Of a DNA stretch of 51,526 nt, positions 2,721-33,738 are shown one piece after another (the first letter of the stretch is position 1; each line of letters starts with the position of its first letter). Source of the DNA: Polymyxa betae (Eukaryota > Endomyxa > Phytomyxea > Plasmodiophorida > Plasmodiophoridae). The notes below the pieces were generated by a model. The model was given only the letters and a program-made list of their open reading frames with translations. It was not told where the DNA came from and ran no database searches. Location: NCBI GenBank assembly GCA_003693705.1, contig RBZT01000316.1, positions 1-51,526 of the forward strand. Reading direction: 5' to 3'. Made by a program: the position numbers and the translations under genes.

Positions 2721-3245
2721 GAGCTGCCTGGTCGTCTCCAGGTGATCAAAGGGGGTTGAGCCGAGGGCTTTCTAAGAGATGTCGATGCGGTTGATGGAGC
2801 GGGCCGCGCACCCCCACTGCCAAGGATAACGCTCAACGGCTAACGAATTAGGGCCGGTCGACAGGGCTCGAGTCTGAGCCCATCACTGCAATTATCCGTG
2901 CGTCAAGTTGTATCGACGCGCCATGCGATTCTGAGTTTCGGTCTTGTGAGGGATGATCGCTTCGTTTCTCTTTATCGCGCGCCCTAATCTAGCTTAGCGC
3001 GTTAAGTGCTGTTTTCGTATCATATGGGACCCCGTTAGCTATGAATCTTTCAGTATAGTAGAAAATCACTGAACTGTTTAAAGATAATCCCTGTTGTCGA
3101 GATCCAGTGTCATCAGTTTCTCCCTTCTTTTCGAACTGTTGTCTACGCATCGGAAATCGTGATCGTGAGTATTCTTATGTGATCATATTTTTTGGGTGCC
3201 TTCGGCGAGTTTCACAGACAGTCACTGAATTTTAACATCGAAGAG
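2721..3245. promoter_or_regulatory. Divergent spacer between the orphan gene and the glycosyltransferase
   Basis: No coding exon could be supported here. A GTGAGT-type donor near 3165 and a TTTCACAG acceptor near 3216 would make a plausible 5'-UTR intron for the downstream glycosyltransferase. The rest presumably holds two divergent promoters. No TATA box could be assigned with confidence. Confidence 0.35.
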
Positions 3246-4223
3246 ATGCTGGTGGAATACTTGCCATCAGCGGAAGCAGGAAGGCGGTCAAGCATTGGCT
3301 ATGCCTGCCTCCTAATAGCGAGCTTGATATTGTCGTTTTACTGGGGCCGCATATTCTCCAGATCGTTTCAAAACGCTATTGCAACTTTCGATCATTCGAG
3401 CGGCATCGAGTTGAACGTATTGCCAACCGACCCGCCAGCCACTCACACAGCTCTTCCAAGGAAGAAATCCAGTCGGGTGTTTTCGTTCGTATTTTATGGT
3501 GACGATCCGATGTTTGTGAAAGGCGCTATGAGAAATGCACAGATGATTCCCTTGCTGATGCCAGGATGGAATACTAGATTCTATATCGATGGAACAGTCT
3601 CCCAAGAGTTTATTGCTGAAGTGGAGCGGCAGGGAGGAGAGACAATTCGAGTTAGCGACGAGATGGCTGCGTGGAACGAAGTTCGCCGATTATGGCGATA
3701 TATGATTCTCGACGACCCCAATATCGAATATGCTGTATTTCGTGATATTGACTCTCGGGTTTCGATCAGGGAAATTTTGGCGATTCGTGCTTGGATCGAC
3801 AGCGGGATTCCATTCCATGCAATGCATGATCATCCTCATCATAGCACGGCGATACTTGGTGGCATGTGGGGAGCCTATGTTCCAGCATTTAGGAATATAA
3901 CGATAGCGACCCAGAGCATGCTGAATTTTGTTCGCGGCGGTATAGACCATAGCAAGATGGGCGACCAGACCTGGCTCGCCGCCTATGTATTCTCTTTGTT
4001 GCGAGATCATCTTTTATTGCATGATTCGTTTATATGTAATGCGTATGGTATCAAATCGCACCCGTTTCCATCACCAAGGTCAGATCATGGAGATTACGTT
4101 GGGAAGATTATCCACCCGAACTACGGTCCAACCGATCCCTATTACGTTTTTAGCTCCAAGCGCTTCAATGGAACAGAATCACCTCTGAAATGTCGATTGT
4201 TACCTGAATATGTGTTTGGTTGA
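3246..4223 (+). CDS. Type II membrane glycosyltransferase (Golgi-type, DxD motif)
   Basis: A single-exon 325-residue frame starting at ATG 3246. A short cytosolic tail is followed by a membrane helix at about residues 19-40, as in Golgi glycosyltransferases. The catalytic region has WRYMILDDP, then FRDIDSR (a metal-binding D-x-D for a nucleotide sugar), then FHAMHDHPHHSTAILGGMWG. This series is characteristic of a widespread family of putative nucleotide-diphospho-sugar transferases with an R-D-x-D-S-R signature. Sugar and acceptor are unknown. A TTG-started extension upstream was rejected as non-ATG and probably intronic. Confidence 0.8.
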   Translation: MLVEYLPSAEAGRRSSIGYACLLIASLILSFYWGRIFSRSFQNAIATFDHSSGIELNVLPTDPPATHTALPRKKSSRVFSFVFYGDDPMFVKGAMRNAQMIPLLMPGWNTRFYIDGTVSQEFIAEVERQGGETIRVSDEMAAWNEVRRLWRYMILDDPNIEYAVFRDIDSRVSIREILAIRAWIDSGIPFHAMHDHPHHSTAILGGMWGAYVPAFRNITIATQSMLNFVRGGIDHSKMGDQTWLAAYVFSLLRDHLLLHDSFICNAYGIKSHPFPSPRSDHGDYVGKIIHPNYGPTDPYYVFSSKRFNGTESPLKCRLLPEYVFG

Positions 4224-4343
4224 ACATATGCATGCATAAAAGGTCAGTTCAAACGTGGGCGTCACAAAAAAACCAGACAATTTGGGAGACTACAATCACA
4301 ACGGTTTCCAGTTCATACTTATCACAGACACATGAGAATTGAT

Positions 4344-4711
4344 TTATCGCTCAAATAAAGCTTCGTCATATATAGAGCACATCTTCGTCGGAAAGCTATT
4401 TGAGGCCCCCATCCAGTAGAATGCTAAAGTTCCGAAAAAAGCAAGAAAAATCGATGATCGTAATCCGAAACAGAAGAACTGCGTAGGCTGCGCAGAGGGC
4501 TTCTCGTGGCTTCTGTTTCTCATCTCGGTCGCAAGCAGGTCAGCGGAAATAAGCGGAGGCCGCCTGGATGATTCCCAGTCAGCTTTTTGGGGCGTGACCT
4601 CCAGTAACGCCGCAACTCCGTCACATAGTCGCCTTTCCGCACTTCTGTTTTTTCTTTCGAGGGACGTTGCTCTCGTCGCCAGGCCATTGCTTGAGAAAAC
4701 CGTCCAATCAT
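4344..4711 (-). CDS. Small single-pass membrane protein, head-to-head with Tudor-SN
   Basis: Exon 4711-4599 joins 4563-4344 through a 35-nt intron (GTCACG...ATCCAG) to give 110 residues. The N-terminal half is highly charged and basic (RREQRPSKEKTEVRKGDYV). A hydrophobic segment follows near residues 73-90 (IFLAFFGTLAFYWMG), then a short tail. The unspliced frame from 4751 is also open, so the splice is inferred from the gain in charged, coding-like sequence. The intron is shorter than usual here. The ATG at 4711-4709 shares two bases with the Tudor-SN ATG at 4710-4712. No family was recognised. Confidence 0.45.
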
Positions 4712-7700
4712 GGCAGCGCCTCGCCCGATTGACGTCATGCCTATTATTCATAATGGTCCTTCAGCTGCAGACATTGCCAGCCGCATCGCTTCCGCCGATC
4801 CCACAAAGCAAGCAGAAGCCCAGGCGAAGATTTCGTTTGCCTACCACCAAAAGCAAGGTGAGCGTAGAGTTTTCTCCAGGCTTGTAGAAGTCTAATATTA
4901 TCCAGTGTCCTCTAGTCTGCAATCTCAGCAGCAAGCTGATAATGCAAAAGAAGACGCCCCTCTGAGAGGCAACGTGAAAATTAGCGGTTATGCAATCGTC
5001 AAATCAGTTCCTCAAGCTGACACTCTGGTAATTCAGTTCATGGATTTATTTTCTATAATCCATTTACTTTGTACAGGTACTGGTCGGAAGTGGGCCAGCT
5101 GGGAAAGCTCCTCCCGAAAAAGTCTTGATTCTGTCCGGAATTGTTGTTCCTAGAATTGCCCGGCGCAAGGATGCTGTTGATGAACCTTATGCCTTCCACG
5201 CCAAGGAGTTCATGCGAAAGCTTGTCATTGGCAAACGTGTGAAGTTCACGGTCACTTATATCCATGGAGAATCTGGTCGCGAATACGGAACTGCAGAGCT
5301 TGAGAATGTTGGTGATTTGACCGAGAAATTGGTTGCGGAGGGATGGGGTATTTGAATGTCTTGCCTCTGTTTTGATTCACAGTAATATTTTTCCCTAGCC
5401 AAGCTTAAGCCTGCAAAAGAGCCTGCTAATAAAAGCAAGGACAAGGATGCGAAGGTTAAACCCGAGCAGGAAAAATATGAAATTTTATCTGCCAAGGAAG
5501 CTGCCGCTATTGAGGCCAAGATCGGACTTCACGCTGCGAAACCGGTTGCAAATGCTGTTCGCACTGTTGAACACCTTACTGCTGCTGACCAAATCAAAGA
5601 ATTTTTCAATGCTAACCGTGGCAAAAAGCTTAACTGTATCGTTGAACAAGTACGATAGTCTCCAATCGCCCCCCATGTACAACCTTAACGATGCCTTTGC
5701 AGGTTCGCGAGGGATCTTCTCTCAGATTGGAACTTCCTGAGAAGACCCACAAAGTTTTTGTTCTTCATCTTGCCGGTGTTCAGGCTCCTCGCATTCCTGT
5801 CCCTAAATCAGGTGTTTACATTTGCAAGCACTGGTTGGCTTGGTGTTTATTCACTGTGTTTGTAGGCTCGCCAAAGAATTCTGAGAAAGCCGAACCTTAC
5901 GCTCTTGACTCACAGAAGTTCACTGCCGATCGTCTGTTGAACCGCGATGTCAATGTTGTACTTCTTGGCTGTGACAAGCTCAACAACCTCTTCGGATCGG
6001 TCTCTGTTTCTCAAGGCGATATCGCTGTTGCACTTCTATCAAAGGGCTTGGCCAAGTACATTGATTGGTCTGCTTCCCTGACCCCTAACAAAGCCGAGCT
6101 TCAAGCTGCTGAAATTTCAGCGAAGACTCAGAAGCTTCGCCTATGGAGTAAGTTCGAAGCTCCTCAGCCAGCGGAGGATGTACGCGGCAAACAGTTTTCG
6201 GGCAAAGTTGTACAAGTTGTTTCTACCGATACTCTTGTCATTGAAGACGGTTTGAAGAAAGAGCATCGTATTTCTCTTTCTTCGGTCCGAGTACCACGTG
6301 TTGCCTACAAGGATCGTTCTGCCGAGCCATGGGCTGCTGAAGGCAAGGAGTTTATGCGGAAAAAATTGATTGGAAAGAAAGTTAGAATCTGTGTTGACTA
6401 TGTTCGATCTGCGCCGTCGGAGTCCAAGGAACAAGAAAGTCGCGTTTATGCTTCTGTCTTTCATGGCAAGGAAAACGTCGGTGAGACTCTCGTTGCCAAT
6501 GGCTATGCTTCCGTTGCTCGTCATCGTATGGATGAAGACCGCAGTGAGCATTACGAAGCTCTTCAAACTGCCGAAGAAAAGGCTTTAAAAGACAAGAAGG
6601 GTATTCACGGGGCGAATCCTCCAGCTTCTGTTCCGGTCGTTGACTTGTCTGAACGTGTTCGTGTTCCTTCCAAAGGAGCTAGTGAGGAGGTCATGCGGAA
6701 ACAGCGTGATTTGGTCATTAAGACCAAACAGTTCTTCTCGGCCATCCAACGTCTGGGTCGTGTCAAAGCTGTTGTAGAATATGTCTTCAACGGTGGCCGA
6801 ATCAAGGTCTATGTTCCTGCCGAAAACCATGTCTTTACTTTTATGCTGTCCTATATTCGTCTTCCAGGGGGAAAAGGAGAAGTTGACAAGTTGGGCGAAG
6901 AAGCAACTGAATTCATCAAAGGCCTGATTCTTCAGCACGATGTTGAGATTGAAATTGATTCAATGGATAAGGGCGACAATTATTTGGGTAGCCTGTTTAT
7001 CGATCGCAAGAATCTATCATTGCTGCTGCTTGAGCGTGGTCTTGCGCGTTTGGTTCCTCGCTCTTATGAGAAGAGCAAATATGCTCAAGAGCTTAACCTG
7101 TACCAACAGGCTGCTCAAAAAGCCCGCCTCGGTGTATGGCATGATTACGATATTGAAGCTGAAAAGAAGAAGGCTGAAGAGCGTTTTGCTGCTTTAAAAA
7201 AGCAGAGGGCTGAAGAAAAAGCTCAGGAATTGCTTGAAAAGCAGCAAGCGATGGAATTTGTGTGCACGATCAGTGAATGCTTCGATCCTTTAGACTTTTA
7301 CTATCAAAAAATCAACGATCCGAATTTACCCAAGATTGAAGCTGCTTTAAAGTCCCTCGCTCCTTACAAGGGCCCAGTTTTTGAGCCCAAGCGCGGAATG
7401 ACCTGCATTGCTCAATATGATGATGGTACTTGGTACCGCGCTAAAGTCGAAAAGAACATTCTAAAGGGTTTATACCTTGTGTTTTTCATTGACTACGGCA
7501 ACCGAGCTGAAGTTACCAGTGTACGACCTGTTCCTGATAATGTCCCTGCCCTCAAAAGCCCTGCCTGCTCGCACCATGCTCAGTTGTCCGGAATCAAATT
7601 GTCCCATGATTACATTGATTACTCTGTTGAGCTGTTTCAGGAACAGGTACGTGATGAACGGTATTTCCTATTCTCTTACCAAATTGTAATATTCGTTTTA

Positions 7701-8056
7701 ATAGACCTGGGAGAAGCAACTGCAATCTAATGTGGACGCTACCGATCGTGAAAGTCACAAGGCCCATGTTACTCTGACTGTCATTGATCAAGAATCTGGA
7801 GAACGTTCTAATATGTAATGCTTTGATTGCTATGATTCTTCTGCTTACAGTGATTAGGTCTATAAACGAATATCTGGTTCGCTCGGGTGCTGTTCGAGTC
7901 CTGAATCGGGGAACTCGTAATATTCGTCACATTGTCGATCCCCTCAAGCTTGCCGAAAATGCTGCCAAACAAGACCATCTCGGTATCTGGGAGTATGGTG
8001 ATGTTTCCAGTGACGAAGACGAAGAGAATGTGAAGTCCAAGGATAAACGATTTTAA
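4710..8056 (+). CDS. SND1: Tudor-SN / SND1 (p100 co-activator, staphylococcal-nuclease and Tudor repeats)
   Basis: Eight exons keep frame throughout: 4710-4857, 4906-5027, 5077-5347, 5399-5649, 5703-5811, 5866-7646, 7705-7814 and 7858-8056, for 996 residues. Successive staphylococcal-nuclease-like folds are visible through repeated blocks such as EPYAFHAKEFMRKLVIGK, EPYALDSQKFTADRLL and EPWAAEGKEFMRKKLIGK. A Tudor domain (GMTCIAQYDDGTWYRAKVEK, then FIDYGN) is followed by a split terminal SN fold (INEYLVRSGAVRV). The family binds and cleaves small or edited RNAs and acts in transcription, splicing and stress granules. The protein exceeds the roughly 900-residue norm because of an N-terminal extension of about 60 residues. 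The 54-nt intron 5812-5865 has no stop and keeps frame if retained. Confidence 0.93.
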
Positions 8057-26154: not shown

Positions 26155-27677
26155 ATGTCATCGCGTGCATCTCGTCTTCTTAACCAATGCCAGCCAGCGT
26201 CTCAGTCGCAAATCAAGAACGTTTGCGTCACTGGAGCAGCTGGCAATATTGCCTACAGCATTTTGTTCCCAATTGGTGCTGGTCTCATGCTTGGCAATGA
26301 AACCAAAATCAACCTCATTCTGCTCGATATGTTCGTTTTTTTTTAAGAATGATAACGTTTGATAACTGTGTTGTAGTCCAGGGATGGAGCCCAAACTTAA
26401 TGGAGTTACAATGGAACTTCATGATTGTGCCTTTCCAAATGTTAATAAGGTTATTTGCACAACAGGTTACAAAACTGCATTTACTGATTGCCATTATGCA
26501 TTTCTAATTGGTATAGACTGAACTTACGACCAATATATTTACAAGTGAATCGTGTATTGTTTAGGTGCCAAACCCCGAGGACCTGGAATGCAACGGTCGG
26601 ATTTATTGAATGCCAATGCAAAGATTTTCGCCGGCCAGGGGAGAGCTCTAAATCAGTATGCAAATAGAGATGTTAAAGTAAGCAGTCAATCTCATTTGAA
26701 ATTTCGATTCGTTAATGTTTGACAGGTTGTGGTCGTTGGAAATCCTGCCAATACCAATGCATTGCTTGCCATATTGTAAGTAATGCTCTATTCTGCAATT
26801 TGCCGAAATCGATCCTGTTTATCAGGAATGCACCTAACATTCCTAAAGAAAATATTACTGCATTGACGCGATTAGATCAGAATCGTGCTGGTAAGCTTTT
26901 CGGTAGATGGAATTCCATTTCATAAATTTCGACGTAGTTGCTCAAGTTTCTCAAAAGCTGGGTGTACCTGTTACTAAGATTGCTGATTGTATTATCTGGG
27001 GAAACCACAGCAAAACACAATACCCTGATCTATCCCACGCCAAAATTGCTGACAAAGGTTGGCTGTTGAGCGCTTCATAATGGTTTTATTGAATCCCGGT
27101 AGGGAAGGCAAAGGATGCCATTAAAGACAACAAATGGGTTGAAACAACGTTCTGCACAACAGTCCAAGACAGGTATACGATGTGATTTTATAATATCTAT
27201 GTTCAAACTGATTCATGGTCCAGAGGCGCCGCTATCATTGAGGTGATCCATTCCTGTAAGGACATTATGATGTCTTACAGTTGTTAGGCTCGCGGGTTAT
27301 CCTCAGCTGCATCTGCTGCTTTCGCAGCAATTCAGCATATTCGTGATTGGGTAATGGGAACTCCTGAAGGCCAAGTTGTTAGCATGGCGGTATGGAGTGA
27401 TGGTACTCACTACAACATTCCAGAGGGCATTGTGTATGACCATCTCGTTTTGATTTCAACCTTGATTAACATTGAATTCAGGTATTCATTCCCAGTTGTT
27501 TGCAAGAACGGATTTTACAAGATAGTTGATGGTATTGTGCTCGAGCCTACTGGAAACTCTTCCTAACAGCAATTTTACTGAATAGGTTTACCAATTGATG
27601 GTTTCTCCCGCAAACAAATGGACGTCACTGCCAAAGAACTTCTTGAAGAAAAACAGATGGCGCTTGCTATGAAGTGA
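26155..27677 (+). CDS. MDH1: Malate dehydrogenase, cytosolic type
   Basis: Eleven exons (26155-26330, 26377-26510, 26565-26677, 26726-26775, 26826-26890, 26938-27057, 27103-27172, 27224-27242, 27288-27433, 27482-27531, 27586-27677) give 344 residues with consistent phases, one exon being only 19 nt. The NAD site is [32 protein letters not shown] follows, then [14 protein letters not shown], substrate Arg in LTRLDQNRA, and the catalytic His in [13 protein letters not shown]. This is the cytosolic/plastid-like class, interconverting malate and oxaloacetate with NAD(H). There is no targeting peptide, which supports a cytosolic site. A decayed copy lies 2.5 kb upstream. Confidence 0.95.
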
Positions 27678-27798: not shown

Positions 27799-30700
27799 TT
27801 ATGTATAAATGCGGTTTGATTGCTCATACCTTCTGGACTGTTTCCGGGCTCGCTTCGCTGGACTGGACCTAGGCTTTGATTTAGGAGCTGTAGTTCGCTT
27901 TCTCGGTCTAGACTCTATTCTTAATGGGGAAAGTTTACTATCACGAACGCAAACCTCTTAGCTGTTGGAGAATTTTTCCCAGAAACTGTGCATATCGTTC
28001 CCGTTTCGGCGATAATACGTTCAGTCAGCCAGAATTTCAGTGGCTGCACACGACGACGACCACTGTGAGAGAAGGTGACACCTTCCACCTTTTCAGATGA
28101 AATCAGGCACAATGCATGCTCAGAGTAACGATTTGCAATACCGCATCTAGTGGCAATTCGAGGAGCATATTGCAGTCTTGCAGAAGGCTTCCGCTATGAT
28201 CTCTCGGGACTGTACCTATAAAGAAGTGTTAATTAATCTAAGTACTAATTCAAATCGAACGTACTTGGTTCCTTTTTCGGCCGTGCACGAGCAGTTGGGG
28301 TATGCTTTTTTGCGTCTGCGGTTATGGTTGATGTAGCAACAGTTGATCGATCGGATTTTGCTGTTGTGTCAGAACTTGTCCTTATGGCACGTGCAGAGCG
28401 CGATTTGCGATTATCTGATGTTTCGACGGGTTCGGTGCCTACAGGAGTGACTGCAGAACCTCTATTTACGTCACATTTTTTCCTCAAAGTTTTCATGGAA
28501 GAATCGCCAGAAATTCGGCGGACTCTCGCCTCGGACCGCACCACACGTTTAGCTTGAGTATTGGAAGCTGAGTTCTGTTTTATGAGGGATGTGTCATCCT
28601 TGCTTGACGTGTGCGGTGACTGCAAATTGTCAGGGTTGATCAAATCCAACCACTTTTCAGGAAATCCACCAGCAAAAGACTGAATTGCTTGATCCCCAAA
28701 GCTAGCTTTCATTGCAAAGATGTCCATCTTACCGAGAAGAACTATCGGAAAAAGTTTGAAACTGCAACCATCAGAGCGACTGGTCTACCTTTCTTGCCGC
28801 CAGCAATTACGATCGACGACTGATCATTTCTACAAACAATTCTGCCTCCAGCCTTTTGTTGATTTTTGGCGTCCGCGCCAAATATGGAGACTGATTTGCC
28901 TAAATTACGTTTAGATGAATCAGGTTTGACTAGATAATGCTCTTAACCTTGATGATCAATGTACCAATTATCGAGACAAATGTAGTCATCAACTTCATCT
29001 GAGCCAAGTTAATTTTGGTTCCTAAGGAAATCAGAAATATCTAGAAACCTGTTTTCGCGCTACTCCCTCGTTGACATTCTGATACTGAGCGATTCGATGA
29101 GCTACCGTCAACAGAACGAACAGAATCGTCAGGCGAATTGAATCGAGATTCTCGAGGACGAAGCGATTGTGACCCTTTGGTTGATGAAGAACTTCGGTCA
29201 CGAGTCCTTTTGTTGGAGTCAACTTCTTGATGGTTTGAAACATCTTCATTTCTGGGCTTTTGCTTTCTGGATGAACGCACAGGAGAAGTCGATTTCCGAA
29301 GTGAAATGGACCTCTTGGGTGTAATGATACGGCGACCAACATCATCGCTTACGATATTTGTGGCACGATATAATTCAATTCCGGCCGAAGCCGTGTTGAC
29401 AGAGAGGCCCGAATGTTGATTAGCAGGACTCACATCGTGATCTACCACCATTTGGTCCCCTTCAAGATTGACCGGACGAGATGAACCGAATTCAGCAGAT
29501 TGGAACTTAGGCAATCCCACATCGGATCCACAACCAGTAGAAGAAGCTTCTTGCATTACTGTTAATGCGTTGTTGGAGATATGAACCTGACTGAAATGTC
29601 ACGAAAGACAATCACACATCAAGATACTTACTGTATCAGATGCATTAGATACACAGATCTCATCTGCTTCAAGAGCATCATTAACGAAATCAGGTCCGGG
29701 CAGTTCAATTACAGGAGGCCCTCTAAGCTGCTCTGAAAAGTCCGATTTCTGAGAAGCATTTTTGGGCGAGCTATGTGCAGCGTTCTCATCGCAAACAGTA
29801 TCCTGCAACGTCTTGGGAACTTCCATATTCCTGAAACAGAGCAAATTGTCGACTTTAGAACTATCTGGTTTGGTGGCAATTGTCGTCAAATCAGAATGTT
29901 CGGGACCTGATACAATTTTGTTCTTTGACTTCGAATCATCATTTTCAATAACACTGAGGGCATTATCAGCAATCAACCGCGTCGGAGTCTGGACAGTGCC
30001 AGATTTTGAACCAATAATGTCCATTAGAGCTTGAAGAGAAGAATTGGAAGCGGAATCCACTAATGGGTGCAGAGCCTGAACGACGCGAGAAGTACGACCA
30101 GTTGGAAGCAGATGCTGAGTGGGTGTAGACTCGAGTGTTTCAGCAAATCTTTCAGGGACAAATTCGGGATCGGAAGGAATATCCAGAAGAGGAGATCCTT
30201 GTGGAATGGGACTTAATAGCTGAGGCTCGTTCAGCGATGTTGAGATGACCGGCGATGAGACAACAGCCTGTGATGACAGACGACCAAGCTTTGGAGATGA
30301 ACCTCGTGGTGCTGATAAGGGAGATCGTAAAGCAATAGGCTGTTCATCAAAAGAAGACGCTGGATCTAATCTGTTGTTCGAAATCGTTTTAGAATGGCGC
30401 CAATCAGAACGCATTGGAGTAAAACATTTTGGTAATGGCGAAGTCTTGTCGGAAGAATTCAGTAAAGGAGAAGTATTTTTGGAAATATTCCCAGCTGGAA
30501 GTAACTTCAAAGCATTGTTCGATATATTTGCCGGGTAAAACGAGAGCGAAGGAGAATTCGATCTGGATGTTGGTTTTGATGAGAATGGTGAATTAGAACG
30601 AGATTCTTGTAAAACCATAGTAGCGACTTTGGTAGCTGCTAAAATCTGCTCACGATCTCGTTGTTTCTGTAGTATAACGCTCTCAAGAGAAATCCCTTTA

Positions 30701-31158
30701 CTGGCTGATAAAGGCGGCCGCTGACGATGATCGATTCCTGAACTTTCAAGAGTTGGGGTCTTAAGAGTTGGGGTCTTAATCTGAGCAGGACGTCTAACAC
30801 TATATTTGGGATCTTTAAGAGTGTTTGTTTGTGGGCTTGCTACAGGCGTCTGTGAAGTCAAACTGAGAATGATGCTGCATGATTAATTCATGAATCTAAC
30901 CGATGTGTTCAATTGTTCTGATGCTGATTGCACTGGATCTAACGTCTGGTATGTTTTTGGGAGGTCAGATGGTCGAGCGAACTGTCCTGCTGATAATCGC
31001 GAGAGAAGATTCTTGGGCGTCGGGCTCTGACGGCGAAACTTTTCCAGTCTGGCCTCGATCTGCATCCGACGAGCAGCGTCTGGGTCGACACCAAACTGGG
31101 CATGTTGTACGCTGGGCTTTAGGATGGCGGCCGTCGCCGATGGTGGTGGTTGATTCAT
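27799..31158 (-). CDS. KNL2: KNL2/MIS18BP1-type centromere protein (SANTA domain plus CENPC-k motif)
   Basis: Exons 31158-30901, 30849-29632, 29586-29049, 28998-28948, 28899-28789, 28741 to about 28265, about 28193-27955 and 27919-27799 give about 1000 residues. The first 650 or so are disordered, rich in Ser, Pro and Asn. The SANTA domain follows, split by introns: DYICLDNWYIDHQGKSVSIF, then VLLGKMDIFAMKA and GGFPEKWLDLINPDN, which matches the family's G-F-P-E-K-W signature. Near the end lies a CENPC-k motif, GRRRVQPLKFWLTERI, which binds CENP-A nucleosomes. KNL2 licenses CENP-A loading at centromeres. There is no cupin domain, so this is not CENP-C. One junction (28265/28193) is not resolved in frame. 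Confidence 0.85.
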
Positions 31159-31296: not shown

Positions 31297-33257
31297 TCAT
31301 CTTCGAACGCCGTGGTCACGACGTCGTCCAGCAGGACTTCGAGAACGACCATATTCACGATAATCATGACGCGCATATGCCCTGCGATCGTCTAATTGGC
31401 GGCGCCTACTGTCGTCTATTCGACGTCGCTCCAATTCATATCGCCGTTCATCGTATCGTCTTCGTTCTTCGTCGCGATGCCGCTCCTGAGCACGTCGATA
31501 TTCTTCATGTCGTCGTCGCTCCGCTTCATGTAGACAGAATTCTTCCTCTTTTCGTCGCCTGTCGTCCTCTCGACGTCGGTCTTCATCTCGTCGCCTTTCT
31601 TCTTCATGCCTCCTTTCTTCGTCTCGTCGCCATTCTTCTTCACGCTGCCTTTCAGCTTCGCGGCGCTTTTCTTCCTCGTGACGCTTTTCCTCTTCGATAC
31701 GACGCTTTTCCTTTTCCTGATAGTCGTTGTCGATATTTCGACGAATTTTGTACACGTCTTGAGAGTCGTCTATAATATGGCGTTGTTTTACTTCAACGGG
31801 TCTGACAATACGCTCCTCTGTTGTTGCAATTGGCATCGCTTGTTGTGGGCGACGTTGATGATATCTCGGCGTAGACTGAAATATTGGAATTGGAGCACGT
31901 TGTTGAGGTTGTTGTTGTTTTGGTTGAGGCTGCGGCTGTACGTTTGGCGATGACGTTCGGGTTAGGCCCTGCGACTTCATAAACTCTTCGACGCGCTGAG
32001 CTAAAGCTGGGTTCCGATTCAGTTCGTCGATATCTTCAATCGGCTCTTGGCATATCGGACACGTCTAGTAGATACTTAATATCACTCATAAAAATGGTTT
32101 AAATGTGACCATACTGGATTCGATATAATACAAGCTCTGCAGAATGTTGTATAGCAACAGTTTGTAACTGTTGGATCGTCGTATAATTTCTTACATATCT
32201 GACATGTGAGATCTTCAGCAGATGCTAACGCACGTTCCATAGCGATCTTCTGTTCAGCTCGATCATGAGCAGAAAACGCTTCAGCAAATGCGCGATGGTT
32301 TGGTTCAATGTTGGCATAAGTTCTAGAACACTGATAAGACTCAGAATATAAGAACATAAGAGAACGAACCCGTCTTCAAGACGATAAGCACCTTGACCAG
32401 ATTCGACAGGTTTCAACATTGATAGAGGAATACCCGTACCAGGTTTAGGTCGCTGGAAGTTGTATTCAGTATTTCCATTTGTAGGACAATCTTGTATGAA
32501 ATGTCCTAATCCAAGTTTCGTAACCAATCCTAGAAATAGGTCGGTGGTGGGTAGTACCTGGCATTTGACATCGATGACAAATATATCCAGGACGAGGTCG
32601 GCCAGTACGAGCAAATTGTGGTCTTTTGGTATGGCCAGATCCAGCAATACTTGCAGCTAAAGCTGGAGCAGGAGCTTCAAAAGCCGATGCCAAATCTGCT
32701 AATAATCCTGGACGGCTATGTCGAACGCCTAGATTGCTATTAGAAAAATGAGTAGTTTATAATGTTGATAACCTGTTGTATAGCTAGACTGATTGAGAAC
32801 TTCTTCAAGACGTCGCATTTCATCATCTGCACCAGAAGCAGCATCGGGATTGGTACTGGTGACGGTAGATGCTACCCTTGTTTGTGATAGGATCGTTACG
32901 ACAGTTGGTTCATGTATACGAGCGATAACTTCAGCAGATCCTGGAACCTTACGAACATCTACTGATGTATTCTTCGGGATAAGAAAATTCTCAGCAACGT
33001 ATCCTAATCATGGGATATTATTTATCCGGCAGCATTTAGAGCAGAAAAATAAAAATGAGCGCTTTCTGCATTGCGATCTTACTCTCTCCAGTCTGGGCAT
33101 TAGTAAAGATCATATTTGTATTTGTATCTTCATCGGGCTGCAACTCTTTCAGCTGTTGGACGATAGCGCGTTTTAAGTCCAAGACCGAGATGACTGCCGA
33201 GTCGAAAGCGACCGTTTTCCAGCGTTTGTCGTCCTTGAACTTGTACCTGACTGACAT
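31297..33257 (-). CDS. RBBP6: RBBP6/Mpe1-type subunit of the cleavage and polyadenylation factor (DWNN, zinc knuckle, RING)
   Basis: Start ATG 33257. The DWNN ubiquitin-like domain opens the protein (SVRYKFKDDKRWKTVAFDS, then YVAENFLIPKNTSVDVRKVP). A CCHC zinc knuckle, CHRCQMPGHFIQDC, forms only after splicing a 51-nt intron. A RING/U-box-like domain follows (CQICKKLYDDPTVTNCCYTT, then CPICQEPIEDIDELNRN). The tail is about 200 residues of Arg/Glu-rich, RS-like sequence. The order DWNN-knuckle-RING is diagnostic for RBBP6/Mpe1, which activates the mRNA 3' endonuclease. The stop is at 31297, 138 bp before the KNL2 start. About six exons; inner borders given only where tested. Confidence 0.93.
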
Positions 33258-33738
33258 TGGACCAACAAGTTTTAATAAAACACAAGAATGAAGATGTCGG
33301 ACAATAACAGATAGAAAGACCGGGAGGGTCATATTACCTATATACGGCGCCACTTCTCTACTATTTCGTATCTATTACGTTACATATCCTAAATCTTCTT
33401 ACTGTATTTATAATACAGCAATATAGTTGATCATTTCCACAATCAGATCTCCATATCAACAGATATACGCTTAGCTAACATTATTGATCCAAAAATCCCC
33501 TTCATTATTCCTTGATCCTTGATTACTTGGTTCTTGGTTAAATAAAGGCAAAAACATGATTTTGACAATGCCTATCAAAAGCTTCAGAAAATCTGAACGA
33601 TTAATGAAAGAATTGCTCTATATATGTATGGTGATAATATGAAGTTGATTATGCTGGGTGATGATGAGTCCATGACGTAATGACAGTTGTTAGGGTTTAA
33701 CATTGCGTCATTTGATTAACATCATTATAATGTTGGCA
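33258..33738. promoter_or_regulatory. Divergent promoter region of RBBP6 and mitochondrial uS2
   Basis: The 481-bp spacer has no exon. Within it, 33672-33682 reads ATGACGTAATG and 33701-33711 reads CATTGCGTCAT, an inverted pair with one mismatch and CRE/ATF-like cores. Between them lies TTAGGGTTTAA (33690-33700), a telo-box (AAACCCTAA on the other strand). Telo-boxes are known in promoters of translation genes in plants and some other eukaryotes. The use here is inference. Confidence 0.5.

Follow-up and report, generated by a model that had tools for sequence, protein, structure and literature searches.

The window, as we call the whole 51,526-nucleotide stretch of the Polymyxa betae genome analysed here, carries on its minus strand a gene that is very probably the KNL2/M18BP1 of this plasmodiophorid rhizarian, with a proposed role in the marking of CENP-A chromatin. 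The spliced protein has a SANTA domain that scores above the curated cut-off and a CENPC-k motif C-terminal to it, and no cupin domain was detected; this combination bears out the identity (KNL2/MIS18BP1) that a preliminary description had assigned to the gene. As a criterion for KNL2 the CENPC-k motif is found in many, not all, members. CENP-C is encoded by a distinct gene, and one and the same genome contains a whole CENP-A-loading set: KNL2, CENP-A, a CENP-C with a cupin, and a true Mis18.

Gene model and genomic setting

In the spliced model a single gene on the minus strand extends from an ATG at 31158 to a stop at 27799, the two limits of the span previously given for it, and comprises nine exons and eight GT-AG introns of 45-53 nt encoding 989 amino acids (Table 1). 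The coding length is divisible by 3, there are no internal stops and an in-frame stop lies directly upstream of the first ATG. The intron sizes agree with those of six introns (45-51 nt) in the convergent malate dehydrogenase (MDH) gene, which are fixed by a well-conserved protein and serve to calibrate intron size. Over 241 residues the MDH is 72% identical to that of Plasmodiophora brassicae, the best of the 120 matches listed (7,999 candidates scored), and the suggestion that the host might be a protist is upheld by this closeness. A search of the genome (24.4 Mb in 541 contigs) revealed no second KNL2 copy, all six matches at E<=10 being the KNL2 gene itself. The GC content of the window, in 2-kb steps, ranges from 0.376 to 0.480; the published P. 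betae draft, as described in excerpts of its report, has a GC content of 45.1% over 27.1 Mb and 1,001 contigs (PMC6328671). Upstream of KNL2, also on the minus strand (31297-33371), lie frames that encode a DWNN domain (45.1 bits) and, towards the C-terminus, a highly charged part rich in Arg and Glu. Their stop and the start of KNL2 are some 140 bases apart, and we infer that these frames together form one RBBP6-like gene. Elsewhere in the window (5646-7730, plus strand) an uninterrupted 694-residue frame of Tudor-SN type, with SNase and TUDOR domains, stands within an otherwise intron-dense region.

Table 1. Features of the KNL2 gene and its convergent neighbour in the window
Feature	Position	Strand	Basis
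KNL2/M18BP1 coding span	27799..31158	-	spliced model, 989 aa
Exon 1 (aa 1-86)	30901..31158	-	spliced model
Exon 2, Ser/Pro-rich region	29632..30849	-	spliced model, composition
Exon 3, Ser-rich region up to SANTA	29049..29586	-	spliced model, composition
SANTA domain, aa 678-758	28644..28981	-	PF09133 match; positions derived from exon table
Exon 4, carries part of SANTA	28998-28948	-	spliced model
Exon 5, carries part of SANTA	28899-28789	-	spliced model
Exon 6, carries part of SANTA	28741-28265	-	spliced model
Exon 7, short linker, existence and boundaries uncertain	28142..28215	-	one of 26 open GT-AG paths
Exon 8, bears CENPC-k	28088-27955	-	spliced model
CENPC-k motif TFSHSGRRRVQPLKFW in exon 8	28029..28076	-	best window match to plant motif
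Exon 9, most of basic C-terminal tail	27799..27907	-	spliced model, composition
Malate dehydrogenase (MDH), convergent neighbour, 3' part read	26566..27677	+	protein match, 6 introns

The stretch that precedes the SANTA domain is serine/proline-rich in composition. A disordered N-terminus of about 650 residues had been described for this protein; the long Ser/Pro-rich stretch is indeed there, its length is 677 residues, and disorder is judged from composition only. Within residues 1-675 there are 23 SP/TP sites, against 13.6 in shuffled sequences, a count reached by 0.24% of 5,000 shuffles; for the strict CDK form [ST]Px[KR] there is no enrichment (four sites, reached by 8% of shuffles). An [ND]AL motif occurs four times in the same region (residues 198, 382, 477 and 498), three of the copies reading by eye as I-x-[ND]-N-A-L and encoded by different synonymous codons. 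Four copies were reached by 0.04% of 20,000 shuffles, for a motif picked after inspection, and in a blind self-comparison of the N-terminal region the best pair was a different one, reached by 19.5% of 200 shuffles; the statistics are thus weak, and [ND]AL is a possible repeated binding motif. At the other end of the protein lies the C-terminal tail (residues 941-989), whose first residues are encoded in exon 8; it has a net charge of +15 and may bind DNA.

SANTA domain and CENPC-k motif

The residues that had been quoted for SANTA and CENPC-k were both found on the minus strand within the span of the gene, in the order W683-Y-I-D-H687-Q-G-K, then GGFPEKWLDLIN, then GRRRVQPLKFWLTERI. A profile search of the spliced protein, which had been proposed as a check, gave a PF09133 match of 26.3 bits (E 1.1e-5) against a curated cut-off of 21 bits, which spans residues 678-758 of the protein and positions 1-91 of the 92 in the profile; the domain alone scored 31.7 bits (E 2.1e-7). 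The introns had been chosen with the SANTA domain known, and hence a splice-variant test was run. If introns are limited to 40-55 nt, the flanking exons can be connected by 65 open GT-AG paths. Three introns are used in 15 of these, and ten of the 15, all sharing exon 6 and including the chosen model, were scored. SANTA was the top Pfam family in all ten versions (18.6-31.2 bits) and the SANTA call does not, therefore, depend on the splice choice; it was above the cut-off in five, with the chosen model highest. Exon 6 carries part of the signal; its unspliced frame alone matched no family other than SANTA at E<=10, and this match stayed below the cut-off at 16.4 bits (E 0.013). A whole-genome PF09133 search produced no match, the KNL2 gene itself included, because exons are scored one by one and the search is blind to this gene. 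The best PDB match to the domain was Mis18-binding protein 1 (9r6h), individually not significant at E 0.22 and followed by five unrelated chains (E 0.79-2.4). Searches with the SANTA part against 5.8 billion proteins, from sources that include nr, UniRef and EukProt and with a length filter applied, returned no relative at E<=10 (3,494 and 26 candidates).

The CENPC-k motif sits approximately 155 residues C-terminal to SANTA. Its 16 residues, TFSHSGRRRVQPLKFW, align without gaps to the plant CENPC-k consensus, as given in the part of PMC9210943 consulted, with nine identities. All 48,200 stop-free 16-residue peptides from the six frames of the window were ranked against this consensus, and the motif came first with a score of 44 (next 33, mean -15, sd 8.4), so that the CENPC-k claimed for the gene is the best match in the window to the published plant motif. 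Among 177,635 PDB sequences all three matches at E<=10 were of CENP-C type, namely CENP-C (4x23), MIF2 (6qld) and 7y7i_K, with E values of 0.64-1.3, each individually not significant. The last of these is deposited as a Myb-like protein, which we take to be chicken KNL2 on the CENP-A nucleosome. Arg920 and Trp929 of the Polymyxa protein align with the CENPC-k arginine and tryptophan reported as necessary for centromere targeting in Arabidopsis KNL2 (PMC9210943, in excerpt).

Neither a cupin nor a Myb domain was found in the spliced protein by Pfam at E<=1, in agreement with the earlier statement that the gene lacks a cupin; this covers the C-terminal cupin PF11699, the criterion for CENP-C.

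Partner genes and alternative explanations

The CENP-A gene (at C19) is an H3-like gene with a single uninterrupted frame. Its two top PDB matches were both chains of S. pombe Cnp1 (E 6.7e-42), with ordinary H3 following by a very narrow margin (E 1.1e-41), and its loop 1 has four residues more than the loop 1 of H3 from the same genome. The H3 frames that were read have a GERS end, the usual H3 ending being GERA. CENP-C is encoded at C193 by a 521-residue frame (3052-4617, plus strand) with a PF11699 cupin (51.1 bits) and, upstream of it, the CENP-C motif RRSQRARCKPVAFF, for which CENP-C accounted for four of the five PDB matches at E<=10 (best E 0.064). In this motif Phe-Phe replaces the usual Tyr-Trp, and the KNL2 motif keeps Phe-Trp. 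Mis18 (at C410) was joined by hand from four exons into 180 residues that match PF03226 at 76.4 bits; its first intron, of about 150 nt, is longer than the other introns observed, and its best PDB matches were human Mis18-alpha (E 4.6e-11) and then S. pombe Mis18 (E 1.3e-10). The genome search with PF03226 gave two matches, the stronger of them at C31. This candidate for a second Mis18 was rejected as a Yippee-like protein, with yippee-like 5 as its best PDB match (E 3.7e-14); in its frame (2888-3667, minus strand) the Yippee domain is preceded by an N-terminal extension of some 140 residues. HJURP/Scm3 and CENP-I were undetected by exon-by-exon genome searches, neither of which gave a match in any of its 14 control genomes, and this result is no proof that they are missing. 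A weak SHNi-TPR match lies at C277:45922-46002 (23.4 bits, E 0.0015), in a search that also matched two of 14 prokaryote controls; it is possibly a NASP-type histone chaperone, which could replace the undetected HJURP/Scm3.

The presence of a separate CENP-C gene, with the motif followed by a cupin, bears directly on whether the gene in the window might be a CENP-C paralogue that has lost its cupin and not KNL2. Its motif is of CENP-C type and the PDB matches do include CENP-C and MIF2 chains, but the protein carries SANTA above the cut-off as well as having no cupin at E<=1, and given the SANTA domain this very improbable reading is largely refuted. Even less credible is a recent acquisition from the host plant, or beet DNA within the assembly. 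Polymyxa betae lives in beet roots, plants possess KNL2 in which both features occur, and the spores from which the assembly was prepared came out of infected roots, according to excerpts of PMC6328671. Nevertheless, a recent transfer would closely resemble plant KNL2 and the protein searches, with their length filter, gave no match at E<=10; moreover, the intron sizes are those of the adjacent MDH gene, itself closest to Plasmodiophora. Recent transfer from a plant is unlikely because of this lack of a match together with the parasite-like introns.

A third alternative concerns the join between the SANTA and CENPC-k exons of the KNL2 model. The junction had been placed near 28193-28265; a single intron there was rejected, since the reading frame is lost, a donor at 28264 with a TAG acceptor ending at 28194 running into a stop. 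From 28289 to 28061, introns of 40-80 nt leave 26 open GT-AG paths, of which 20 have two introns and six have three. A single intron joins these points only at 84 nt or more (two of 46 paths with introns of up to 120 nt), and with introns of up to 200 nt five of 54 open paths are single-intron. The chosen model has introns of 49 and 53 nt around exon 7 (28265/28215 and 28142/28088), and no other part of the KNL2 model is as uncertain as this linker exon, to which one longer intron is the alternative. The core of the CENPC-k motif is outside this ambiguous stretch. If instead there were two neighbouring genes, one for a SANTA protein that ends near 28245 and a small one downstream with the CENPC-k motif, this would fit the continuation of the exon-6 frame to a stop at 28245, the need for either two introns of usual size or one of at least 84 nt, and the last acceptor, which among the 26 short-intron paths is AAG in 22, as against CAG/TAG in the six MDH introns. 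However, introns of 49 and 53 nt suit the sizes in the MDH gene (45-51 nt), longer introns are present in the genome, as in the Mis18 model (about 150 nt), and the order of SANTA followed by CENPC-k is that of published KNL2 (PMC9210943, in excerpt). Such a split is unlikely, although less so than the two preceding explanations; open frames and splice sites suggest that SANTA and CENPC-k belong to the same KNL2 transcript.

Relation to known KNL2 and proposed working

The Polymyxa protein resembles the M18BP1/KNL2 of chicken and Xenopus in having SANTA followed by CENPC-k, in an N-terminal region rich in SP/TP, and in being accompanied in its genome by Mis18 and CENP-C. Compared with non-mammalian vertebrates, however, no SANT/Myb domain was detected in the Polymyxa protein and one Mis18 was found in place of an alpha/beta pair. 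With CENP-C/Mif2 it shares a short motif of CENP-C type with an aromatic pair, but it has no cupin and its motif ends FW, whereas that of Polymyxa CENP-C has FF. Plant alpha-KNL2 (Arabidopsis) is alike in its SANTA domain, in its C-terminal CENPC-k (9/16 without gaps, the needed Arg and Trp kept) and in the absence of SANT/Myb. The SANTA domain of plant alpha-KNL2 lies in the N-terminus (PMC13294675, in excerpt), whereas that of Polymyxa is 677 residues from the N-terminus. In addition, the Polymyxa genome has a true Mis18, whereas in plants, which do have KNL2, none is identified in the parts consulted of PMC9210943 and PMC13294675.

In CENP-C structures an arginine contacts the acidic patch and an aromatic pair contacts the CENP-A tail. 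By analogy with animal and plant KNL2, the Polymyxa CENPC-k would hold existing CENP-A nucleosomes, its arginine contacting the acidic patch of H2A-H2B and its Phe-Trp pair the CENP-A tail, and SANTA would make a further contact, either with CENP-C or with a second KNL2. Mis18 would be carried by the long N-terminal region rich in SP/TP, which would be switched by CDK phosphorylation, and the resulting complex would mark old centromeric chromatin as the place where new CENP-A is to be loaded. The models for all of these binding steps and for the cell-cycle switch are the KNL2 of Xenopus, chicken and Arabidopsis for the roles of CENPC-k and SANTA, the N-terminal region of mammalian KNL2/M18BP1, which binds Mis18-alpha (both PMC9210943, in excerpt), and the control of the Mis18 complex by CDK1 in mammals (PMC13294675, in excerpt).

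The combination of SANTA and CENPC-k had been described as rarely reported outside plants and animals, which is too strong a statement. According to the part of PMC9210943 consulted, it is published not only for plants and many animals but also for chytrids and cryptomonads, so that plants and animals were not the only groups known to have this architecture. The Polymyxa KNL2 is real, correctly named and otherwise ordinary in kind. Among the open-licence papers listed there was no earlier report of KNL2 in Rhizaria and none of KNL2 and Mis18 together in one protist, and as far as this search extends both appear to be new. KNL2, which helps cells to keep track of centromere position, has been studied in animals and plants; it is absent from fission yeast, which does have Mis18, and from Drosophila, as stated in excerpts of PMC7618776.

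A rhizarian with KNL2, Mis18, CENP-A and CENP-C favours a very old joint Mis18-KNL2 module with later losses, in which case the partial sets of model organisms would be the result of loss. A bolder reading, which we hold only tentatively and consider rather doubtful as a whole, is that the full KNL2-Mis18-CENP-C-CENP-A set is older than the divergence of Rhizaria from animals and that, in Polymyxa, KNL2 (Phe-Trp) outranks CENP-C (Phe-Phe) as the reader of CENP-A. If true, the set would have been partitioned later, plants having kept KNL2, fission yeast Mis18 and Polymyxa both. The occurrence of KNL2 beside its partner genes outside plants and animals is useful for dating the CENP-A-loading machinery, and Polymyxa offers a compact set, with KNL2, CENP-C and CENP-A represented once each, in which the nucleosome-binding motifs of KNL2 and CENP-C differ.
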